Shown piece by piece: positions 3,269 to 64,000 of a stretch of DNA of 64,000 bases. Under the pieces are notes generated by a model. That model searched no databases and was not told the DNA's origin. It saw nothing but the letters and a program-made list of their open reading frames with translations. Source of the stretch: Alkaliphilus sp. B6464 (GTDB lineage: Bacteria; Bacillota; Clostridia; Peptostreptococcales; Natronincolaceae); contig NZ_CP058557.1 in NCBI RefSeq assembly GCF_018141165.1, positions 1,674,001 to 1,738,000 on the forward strand. The letters are read 5' to 3'. Numbering within the stretch: position 1 is the first letter of the stretch; each line of letters starts with the position of its first letter. The translations under genes and the position numbers were made by a program.

Positions 3269-3283
3269 TAAAGTTAAAGGCAA

Positions 3284-3512
3284 AGAACAGAAGAAGTAAG
3301 TCTATACTCCTTGCAAGAGATAAGCTGTCATTGGCTGAAAGCAGCTTTCAAGAAAAGATAGACCCAAATGCATCTGGGAGCTATAGCTTGAAATTTTTAG
3401 TAGGGCTAGTCGGGTGGTTCCGTTAAAAACTTGGAGTGGGATGCTTTTTATGATCCAACCAGAGTGGAACCGCGGAATAAAAGCGCCTCTGAATTTTTCA
3501 GGGCGTTTTTTG
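3284..3512 (+). promoter_or_regulatory. T-box leader (probably tRNA-Cys responsive) with terminator
   Basis: The T-box core AGAGTGGAACCGCGG lies at 3461-3475. An intrinsic terminator follows: CGCCTCTGA pairs with TCAGGGCG at about 3484-3504, then a T-run. Upstream is a Stem I-like region with AGTAAG and AGAGATAAGC elements. A TGC triplet at 3369-3371 in CCCAAATGCATCTGGG is the best specifier candidate and matches cysteine, agreeing with the cysE and cysS genes downstream. The specifier assignment is inference; the T-box itself is clear. Confidence 0.93.
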
Positions 3513-13209: not shown

Positions 13210-13340
13210 TACGTTGTTAAATTTGAATATTTTGCCGTAGATAGTAGGTGCTAATGCTTAAACATCCTACCGAGGCTTTGAATAAATAAAATCAAAGGTC
13301 TCGTTATGTCTATGAAAAGACAAAATGAGGCCTTATTTTA
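13210..13340 (+). promoter_or_regulatory. L10 leader with transcription attenuator
   Basis: Two mutually exclusive hairpins are readable. GAGGCTTTGA (13272-13281) pairs with TCAAAGGTCTC (13292-13302), forming an antiterminator. AAGGTCTCGTT (13295-13305) instead pairs with AATGAGGCCTT (13324-13334), followed by ATTTTA, forming a terminator. The upstream part contains AGTAGGTGCTAATGC...CATCCTACC, fitting the known L10 leader layout in which L10/L12 binding favours termination. Confidence 0.85.
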
Positions 13341-13391
13341 ATAAAACGGCAAAGTACGGTGTAAATAATTAAAAAGGAGGTGGATCCCCTA

Positions 13392-27340: not shown

Positions 27341-27533
27341 GTGTGTTAAGAGGCGATGATGTGAAAGGTTGCCCAAAGGGGAAATTTTCACTGAGCATGT
27401 CTTGATCAAAGAATCGGGCGACAAGGCCTAATTGTCCTGTTTTTTAAAAACATATCAACACACCCGGGACAGTGTATCATGGCCTGAGTCGTACGTAAAG
27501 GAAATCACGTGCGATGAGAAGGAGGGAAATTAA
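27341..27533 (+). promoter_or_regulatory. S10 operon leader RNA with probable attenuator
   Basis: A 190-nt leader, noticeably more GC-rich than its surroundings. A hairpin GACAA-GGCCTAA-TTGTC near 27420-27436 is followed by six T. The leader's 5' GTGTGTT (27341-27347) can pair with AACACAC (27457-27463) beyond that terminator. GTGAAA/TTTCAC pairing is also visible near 27361-27390. This suggests transcription control of the operon; the ligand is unknown. Confidence 0.65.
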
Positions 27534-42942: not shown

Positions 42943-43284
42943 ATGGCACATTATCGTAAATTAGGACGTGTAAGCGCTCATAGAAATTTAATGCTTAGAA
43001 ACCTAGTAACTAGTTTATTAAAAAGCGGTAGAATTGAAACAACAGAAACAAGAGCTAAAGAAACAAGAAGACTAGCTGAAAAAATGATTACTCTTGCAAA
43101 AAGAGGAGATCTACATGCTAGAAGACAAGTTCTTAGCTTTATAACAGAAGAAACTGTAGTTAAGAATTTATTTGATGAAATTGCGCCAAAATATCAAGAG
43201 CGTAATGGTGGATATACACGTATTATGAAGCTTGGACCAAGAAGAGGCGACGCTGCAGAGATGGTAATCATCGAATTAGTATAA
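42943..43284 (+). CDS. rplQ: 50S ribosomal protein L17
   Basis: 113 aa; [20 protein letters not shown] and the end [20 protein letters not shown]. Last gene of the S10-spc-alpha block; a terminator follows directly. Confidence 0.97.
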
Positions 43285-43292
43285 TAGATAGG

Positions 43293-43330
43293 AGGGATTA
43301 AGTTAATAGGCTTAGTCCCTGTTTTTTTTT
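43293..43330 (+). terminator. Terminator after rplQ
   Basis: AGGGATTAAG pairs with CTTAGTCCCT (one G-T) and is followed by G and nine T. It closes the ribosomal block. Confidence 0.92.
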
Positions 43331-43670
43331 AAGCACTTGAAATCTTTAGCATAGCTAAAGATTGAGTGCGCCATAAAGTTTGTGAGTGAAAACGAACAAA
43401 TTTTATTTTATGACCTAACCCGATTTGCAAAATTACGCAACTAAAGTTGCTTCATGGCGCACTCAATTTTTAATGGTAATTAAAAATTTCAAGTGCTTAA
43501 AGGCAAATCGATGGTAGGTCAAACGCAACATTCGCGTAGCTCATTTCTACGCTCGCGTTGCTCACTCCGCTGTCCGTTTTGTCAACAACTCACAGAGTTC
43601 GTTGGACAAAAAGGCAATGAGCACCAAATTTATGCGACCGAAGGAAGCAAATAAATTTGAGTTGCGAAAC
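43331..43670. repeat. Multi-hairpin inverted-repeat element of unknown type
   Basis: No ORF. AAGCACTTGAAAT (43331-43343) pairs with ATTTCAAGTGCTT (43486-43498). TTGAGTGCGCCAT (43362-43374) pairs with ATGGCGCACTCAA (43454-43466). Each arm contains its own hairpin: ATCTTTAGC/GCTAAAGAT and AATTTTTAAT/ATTAAAAATT. Inside are ATAAAGTTTGT/ACAAATTTTAT and GCAACT/AGTTGC. TGACCTA...CGATTTGC (43411-43428) matches GCAAATCG...TAGGTCA (43503-43521), crossing the main stem. More hairpins follow: CGCGTAG/CTACGC, AACTC/GAGTT and CAAATTTAT/ATAAATTTG. Confidence 0.85.
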
Positions 43671-43712
43671 TGCGTAAAACTCTAGTTATTTAATTATCTT
43701 ACTCATAAATCA

Positions 43713-43797: not shown

Positions 43798-44637
43798 ATG
43801 AGTAAAATGATAGAGGTTAATAATATACAATTTCAGTATAAAAATAATGATGATGAAGGTATGCTAGCCCTAAACGATGTTACAGTTACGGTTGAGTCCG
43901 GCGAATTTGTTGTAGTAATTGGACACAATGGTTCAGGAAAGTCAACTTTGGCCAAACATATGAATGCTCTTTTATTACCTACAAAGGGAGACGTACTTGT
44001 TAAAGGGCTAAATACAAAAGAGGAAGAAAACATATGGAATATTAGGCAGACAGCTGGAATGGTATTCCAAAATCCTGACAACCAAATTGTAGCTACAATT
44101 GTAGAAGAAGATGTTGCATTTGGGCCTGAAAACTTAGGTGTTCCTCCGGTGGAGATTGTAAGAAGAGTGGAAGAAGCTCTTAATATTGTAGATATGCTAG
44201 AATATAGAGGTAAAGCTCCACATTTATTATCTGGTGGACAAAAACAAAGAATTGCTATTGCAGGAGTCATTGCTATGAGACCCAATTGTATAATCTTTGA
44301 TGAGCCAACTGCGATGTTAGATCCATCGGGCCGTAAAGAAGTAATTAATACTATAAAAAAGCTTAATAAAGAAGAAAATATTACAATAGTTCATATTACC
44401 CACTTTATGGAAGAGGCTGTAGATGCAGATAGGGTTATAGTAATGGAAAATGGGCAAATCGTTTTGGAAGGTAAACCCAAAGAAGTGTTCTCTAAAGTTG
44501 AGCAGTTAAAAGAGTTAGGATTAGATGTACCTCAAATAACAGACTTAACTAATGAATTGATAAAAGAGGGAATTGATTTACCTCAAGATATATTAACTGT
44601 TGATGAAATGGTGATGAGATTATGTCAATTAAAATAG
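43798..44637 (+). CDS. ecfA1: Energy-coupling factor transporter ATPase EcfA1
   Basis: 279-aa ABC ATPase. Walker [16 protein letters not shown]-loop [20 protein letters not shown], signature [14 protein letters not shown], Walker [14 protein letters not shown]-switch [11 protein letters not shown]. The NPDNQ and AFGPENLG segments are typical of EcfA1. It overlaps ecfA2 by 16 nt. The S component (substrate-binding) is not nearby, so this is a shared vitamin/cofactor uptake module. Confidence 0.95.
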
Positions 44638-63861: not shown

Positions 63862-63928
63862 ATTATGAAACAATCTTATTAGACAGTAGAAAACTTTATA
63901 TTTTGTAGAATATTTTTAAAAAAAATAT

Positions 63929-64000
63929 CACTCATATAATACCGATAATATGGTTCGGAAGTATCTACCGGATGACCGATAATCATTCGACTATGAGTGG
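63929..64000 (+). promoter_or_regulatory. Purine riboswitch aptamer, guanine type (cut by window end)
   Basis: P1 CACTCAT/ATGAGTG, the conserved ATAAT, P2 CCGA/TCGG with ATATGG loop, TATCTACC and P3 CGGATGA/TCATTCG. The pyrimidine that reads the ligand is C (TTCGACTATG), as in guanine/hypoxanthine switches. The regulated gene is beyond the window. Confidence 0.95.

Follow-up and report, generated by a model that had tools for sequence, protein, structure and literature searches.

Nested repeats at the foot of the rplQ terminator in Alkaliphilus sp. B6464 belong to dispersed palindromic families

The DNA analysed here, called the window, is a stretch of 64,000 nucleotides from the chromosome of Alkaliphilus sp. 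B6464 (NZ_CP058557.1, positions 1,674,001 to 1,738,000, forward strand), and coordinates refer to it unless stated otherwise. Between rplQ and ecfA1 lies an interval that a first-pass annotation had described as a compact multi-hairpin element, either a non-autonomous mobile palindrome or a structured RNA. The features of the locus are as follows:

42943..43284, plus strand: rplQ (context), an ORF of 113 aa; the name comes from the first-pass annotation and fits the sequence
43294..43330, plus strand: rplQ intrinsic terminator, stem 43294-43302/43311-43319 and T-run 43322-43330, read from the sequence
43331..43409, plus strand: A' element, two hairpins and a T-rich right end TTTTATTTT; seven other copies in the host
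43412..43428, plus strand: 5' arm of the first hairpin of B (43411-43428 pairs with 43503-43521)
43429..43498, minus strand: A2, an inverted A-family element that occupies the loop of the first hairpin of B
43499..43528, plus strand: 3' arm of the first hairpin of B and start of its second domain
43529..43609, plus strand: module C inside B, with edges AAACGCAA and AAAGGCAA
43610..43674, plus strand: remainder of B, its second domain with a tip hairpin at 43625-43659, ending in ACTGCG
43798..44637, plus strand: ecfA1 (context), an ORF of 279 aa

Orthologues of ecfA1 (74-100% identity) are present in 11 of 11 genomes. Elsewhere the window holds ordinary regulatory RNAs, namely a T-box (3274-3493), an L10 leader (13217-13347), an S10-Clostridia leader (27348-27424) and a purine riboswitch cut by the window end (63912-64000).

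The stretch 43331-43674 is a nested pile of the dispersed repeats A', B, A2 and C, and not one RNA. It begins directly 3' of the rplQ terminator, as first proposed: the T-run ends at 43330, A' begins at 43331, and the T-run 43322-43330 is the insertion target of A'. In genome G002 the rplQ terminator stands without an A' element. No gene-like frame was found within the stretch, in line with the first reading, and the open-frame list gives one 53-aa GTG frame (43493-43654). The claim of a locally raised GC content applies to the right half (0.395-0.425 in windows over 43400-43699) but not to 43300-43499 (0.32).

Both parts of the outer stem recorded in the first-pass annotation are present as complementary sequences (43356-43378 with 43450-43472, 23 nt, 91% complementary; 43328-43348 with 43481-43501, 21 nt, 95% complementary), as are the additional small hairpins (I10, I11, I15, I18). 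The fold energy of the stretch is -113.3 kcal/mol against a shuffle mean of -73.57 kcal/mol (z -8.44; equalled by 0 of 100 shuffles). The outer stem is nevertheless absent as a formed structure from the minimum-free-energy fold, where each element folds separately; nothing crosses in that fold, although the program cannot show pseudoknots and the fold alone is thus no ground for excluding one. The long complementarity said to cross the outer stem (43411-43428/43503-43521) is real, with a core at 43421-43428/43503-43510, and a model of B aligns to 43408-43536 with 46.1 bits. A further match of the model, at 43577-43674 (62.9 bits), uses part of C in place of the first hairpin. The crossing helix exists because the inverted A2 splits B's own stem beside another A element (A'), and the outer stem because A' complements the inverted A2. 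Two nested insertions, one of the options originally raised, therefore describe the arrangement, with A2 seated in the loop of the first B hairpin. The pseudoknot or two-state RNA is dropped, since the nesting accounts for the crossing without it.

Parts of the stretch recur at 25 places besides the window in the 3.86 Mb host genome (two contigs); the blastn check recommended at the outset gave 42 matches at 26 places, window included and places counted by hand. Every match outside the window is incomplete, and the longest of them runs from query position 2 to 198 at 94%. A syntenic single copy, the outcome that was to have favoured an RNA, is contradicted by the rplQ-ecfA1 gap itself, which by the same measure spans 516 nt in the window versus 173 nt without elements in G002; it is occupied in G001 by a different relic of the A type and in G012 by a B that points the other way. 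Among host-filled sites, 7 of the 7 compared are empty in G001, and an eighth (L013) is filled in both genomes; at all three B sites of G001 or G002 compared the host lacks the element, and at one of these (L043) G001 lacks it as well. This shows that A and B are gained or lost at given sites between sister genomes. Together with the dispersed host copies, it bears out the suggestion of a non-autonomous mobile palindromic element, and we regard the composite mobile nature of the stretch as close to certain.

Element B extends well beyond the host. An exact-anchor scan found it in 60 stretches, and carriers include Tissierella pigra, T. simiarum, Tissierella sp. P1, Sedimentibacter saalensis, [Clostridium] ultunense, Miniphocaeibacter massiliensis, Caproiciproducens sp. 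MSJ-32 and an Alkaliphilus MAG. Of 393 genomes in the window's order, 53 contain matches to the B model, and in seven of these the score is 80 bits or more; at most nine candidates were scored per genome, so that copy numbers are lower bounds. Among the weaker matches, L207-L211 were read: L207-L209 contain the first hairpin of B, and in L210 and L211 the match lay beyond the stretch read or was truncated. No match was found in phages for the window stretch, nor in plasmids for the one B copy used as query. Viral contigs yielded one B (L291), on a contig whose frames look phage-like by eye. Both there and at L122 in Miniphocaeibacter, B lies among frames resembling phage head genes. In the literature listings searched, none gives a name to these repeats.

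Element B measures 107-122 nt in 36 aligned uninterrupted copies, and TTAT precedes it in 84 of 90 copies, a set that comes from mixed search sources and whose members are not independent. Of these 90 copies, taken with 80 nt of left flank, 38 lie 3' of a terminator-like hairpin and a T-rich stretch within 16 nt, and five follow a tRNA gene by 4-5 nt. The corresponding hairpin was found in 25 of 2000 random positions in the same loci and at 319 of 11190 other TTAT sites, and in the mirror orientation of B it was found in 0 of 69. Within the host, B occupies six 16S-23S spacers, follows three 23S genes and stands behind T-box leaders at L012 and L019; by our own reading of the sequence, B at L082 begins directly after the 23S 3' end. 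The right flanks of B are too diverged to show or exclude a target duplication. In one host 16S-23S spacer (L178, G000:C1:1119300-1120500) B is absent, and its position is taken by another short hairpin insert. The B copies L047, L052, L054, L063 and L067 (G012 and G019) are often found amid loose AACAATGGTTT-type repeats.

The fold of B is maintained through extensive sequence change. For 36 of 38 copies (L083 and L133 were omitted as too different and L052 was re-cut), drawn from a set from which copies more than 93% alike had been removed, standard pairing holds in 95.8% of 1318 pair cells, and double-sided change is seen at 20 of 37 pairs; the anchor letters of copies from the exact-anchor scan were fixed by the search. 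None of 500 shuffles reaches the observed covariation in four of five measures, and 8 of 500 do so for further pair types, while sliding the pairing partners lowers pairing to 38.9% or less. Six single copies fold with z from -3.7 to -7.1, L043 being matched by 1 of 200 shuffles. This covariation shows selection on a folded strand, be it RNA or single-stranded DNA.

The tip of B contains two GA steps, each present in 33 of 36 copies and both in 30 of 36, and the pairs that flank them vary. By eye, the tip of the right A' hairpin appears to be laid out in the same way, with two GA steps, and C appears to have one on its minus strand. Scanning the window for a tandem-GA tip gave 16 matches on the plus strand and 4 on the minus strand; the scan is unspecific, since five mononucleotide shuffles also gave 4-9 matches. 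Its longest stem (11 pairs) is the A' tip and one minus-strand match falls in C, and the window's own B tip was missed because its second step reads AA.

Annotators should take note that B, judged only by its covariation, would be classed as a conserved non-coding RNA. B, and perhaps A, might instead be functional as a structured RNA, one that spread somehow and was kept for its RNA function, such as processing or stabilising RNAs at their 3' ends. This reading draws further on the placement of B, which is found within six 16S-23S spacers and behind three 23S genes, terminators and tRNAs and is always sense-oriented where a terminator is recognised; the double-sided changes in 20 of 37 pairs extend across several genera. 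Covariation, however, is equally expected for a hairpin that is read as single-stranded DNA. Moreover, the sites appear and vanish between sister genomes, and the tips are repeatedly broken by other inserts. The earlier structured-RNA idea holds in part: the folded strand under selection may be RNA or single-stranded DNA. Known RNA families were also considered: at gathering score Rfam gave no match on A or B in the window and five loci with B or A. We consider a functional RNA improbable, if the best placed of the three rival explanations.

Insertions into B recur in other genomes. For module C, the copy in the window is the only one matched in the host, and C is absent from the B copies of L009 and L037; G002, G012, G019 and G024 have long B copies that include it. 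That distribution weakens the view that C was freshly inserted with a duplication of 8 nt, and C may instead have been lost from L009. In G012 and G019 there are B hairpin tips that contain a further insert, about 100 nt long, whose inverted ends read CCGACACTCAG...CTGAGTGTCGG or variants of these, which indicates that these tips are repeatedly hit. It lies in the first B hairpin in L046, L048, L050, L058, L066, L069 and L140, and in the second-domain tip in L071.

A' is a 79-nt unit with two hairpins, the left one GCACTT...GAGTGC (43333-43369) and the right one with the tandem-GA tip (43373-43406), and its region folds strongly (43328-43411, z -7.62). In the host it is solitary at L010, L011, L013, L014, L016 and L017, and precedes B at L009. 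Relatives of A2 stand alone or in tandem at L015 (two), L018, L023, L024, L025 and L026, and A2 is inserted in B at L009 and L037 as well. A core pattern of the A family is found in 4 of 98 genomes, from two genera, with 0 of 98 for the reversed control pattern. Its arms pair in 32 of 33 copies from the host's own and related genomes; in viral contigs, a collection for which the pattern is too short (85 stretches reported, 80 of them listed), the arms pair in 5 of 63 distinct matches among those listed. Six A copies (L246, L252, L256, L258, L262 and L263) have left flanks that are alike around AAAGAAGTAGAAAGTTGGTAATATTTT, and this similarity suggests another repeat family or a common composite. 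By eye, A elements also stand directly before 5S rRNA (L241, L245, L261) and before 16S rRNA (L255) in G005 and G002.

At all five A' sites compared, the T-rich stretch on the left is that of the empty allele and the right end is the element's own, reading TTTTATTTT in four sites and TTTTATT in L017. TTT stands at the left of 30 of 33 A-family copies. The exact match between left and right, read by eye, ranges from about 2 to 9 nt across the five sites. Because its length varies in this way, a fixed-length target duplication is absent at 5 of 5 sites, although a duplication of a few T would stay hidden. A' thus lies 3' of T-rich DNA, as B lies 3' of TTAT in one orientation and often at the 3' foot of a terminator or tRNA.

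These junctions bear on the possibility that the elements are ordinary MITEs, mobilised by a DDE transposase and marked by terminal inverted repeats and target duplication. Short, palindromic, non-coding and dispersed, they resemble MITEs in general form, and the T-rich DNA on both sides of A' could pass as a duplication, exact over 9 nt at L014. Against this, the length of the left/right match varies, the right end stays constant while the left follows the empty allele, and the two ends of A' carry different hairpins; we therefore hold this explanation to be very improbable. Group IIC introns target terminators, and a similar kind of RNA-templated insertion, at terminator hairpins or the 3' ends of RNAs, would agree with the oriented placement after terminators, tRNAs and the 23S 3' end at L082, yet about 110 nt is short for a ribozyme, Rfam gave no intron match in the window and five loci with B or A, and A' in L013 and L014 stands, by our own reading, in the T-rich antisense of a ribosome-binding site and not at an RNA 3' end, which leaves it the faintest of the three.

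Two other loci, L009 in the host and L037 in G001, carry A', B and A2 in the same way 3' of a terminator. Between the window and L009, B5+A2 is identical at 89 of 90 positions and A' at 67 of 79; both arms of the left A' hairpin have changed together, and C is missing in L009. In the history that we propose, A' would have entered at the rplQ terminator, and its right hairpin with the T-rich tail would then have acted as a terminator-like target for B. The incoming B would already have borne A2, coming from the locus at G000:C1:1834134 or from a common source. Gene conversion is an alternative source of B+A2 at the window locus. Movement of the whole composite as one unit is possible, and is less likely than B+A2 landing beside two copies of A', because A' differs more than B5+A2.

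With the class of enzyme left aside, we consider it very probable that the stretch consists of nested short non-autonomous mobile elements with these placement rules and this inferred history. How they move is a matter for more caution. Oriented insertion 3' of a T-rich site, hairpins at the ends and the absence of a fixed-length duplication fit single-strand (HUH/Y1) transposition, whose features are taken from passages of PMC7290912 and PMC6006769. By analogy with HUH (Y1) transposases, an enzyme acting in trans would read the hairpins in their folded, single-stranded form, and the ends would be joined 3' of the T-rich target. We offer this single-strand route as a guess, possible but short of an even chance.

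Three tests returned no support for the HUH-like route, and no enzyme that mobilises the elements was found. No B copy was found near Y1 genes in 33 Y1 loci (with flanks of about 1.5 kb, or shorter at contig ends), and no A-pattern copy was seen by eye near Y1 places in the host and G005. No gene was seen inside B in 94 rows of a mechanical list, which has some artefacts (a single palindrome entered on both strands, for example) and in which 160 letters were read where the end motif was missed. An autonomous parent was accordingly found neither in the 94 B rows nor in the 33 Y1 loci. Counts of Y1 genes do not track the elements: G003, with no BLAST match, has 25, the host 2 and G002 1. In Miniphocaeibacter (G397), B is present and no Y1 match was obtained, genome completeness not being given. 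Replication-strand bias was also considered, and none was seen: 3 of 8 A' copies are co-oriented with the leading strand, by hand count in a small sample.

Among known systems, the closest likeness in form is to PATEs, which the relevant passages of PMC7290912 present as ends-only derivatives of IS200/IS605 elements. Like PATEs as described there, the elements are short and non-coding, carry a hairpin at each end (seen in folds of two A' and six B copies), stand 3' of a short specific sequence, and at A' lack a fixed-length target duplication. They differ from PATEs as so described in that no parent with the same ends was found in the B rows and Y1 loci, no strand bias was seen among 8 A' copies, and the left hairpins of A and B are long. 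They also leave no room for a left guide: IS200/IS605 end hairpins have a guide tetranucleotide at the 5' foot, according to the part of PMC6006769 that deals with them, and the distance from the junction to the left hairpin is 2 nt in A' and 0 nt in B, which leaves no space for such a tetranucleotide.

Repeats of the REP/REPIN type (TnpA-REP/RAYT) share dispersed hairpins with conserved mismatched stem steps, and clustering and interleaving with other repeats, as far as they are covered in the excerpts of PMC8266576, PMC6006769 and PMC3733652. In contrast to the elements treated in those excerpts, the only GTAG in B lies in the first hairpin, within its paired 3' arm, and not at a 5' foot, the A' and B units comprise 79-122 nt and two hairpin domains rather than one palindrome of 20-40 nt, and no Y1 gene is flanked by B in the loci examined; a second REP superfamily carries CGTC, according to the same part of PMC3733652. 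With pneumococcal BOX, RUP and SPRITE, as outlined in sections of PMC3049150, the elements have in common a modular composite make-up, strong folds and a Firmicute host, and in this comparison several B copies follow T-box leaders; by that outline they are set apart, by description and not by sequence, in that elements here nest in hairpin tips and stand in one orientation behind terminators. We therefore do not file the elements as IS200/IS605 derivatives or as REP elements; at most they work alike.

A broader proposal is that one mobility system moves several unlike families (A', B and perhaps C) by reading a shared two-GA tip, NNN-GA-SS-loop-SS-GA-NNN, and by inserting them, oriented, at the 3' foot of folded sequences such as terminators, tRNAs, 23S rRNA and their own hairpins. 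We think this unlikely, though less so than any of the three rival explanations above. If it were true, each element would offer new hairpins, so that nesting would feed itself.

In summary, the data provide good support for a set of mobile palindromic repeat families that is unusual in its nesting, its orientation and the depth of its covariation. Short bacterial repeats are mostly observed long after they have moved; here, sister genomes still differ in which sites are filled and which are empty. The junctions give the insertion rule, and with 20 of 37 pairings covarying the recognised structure is known in some detail. The testable question is which enzyme reads the hairpins, and why these hairpins are placed at the 3' feet of terminators and tRNAs.
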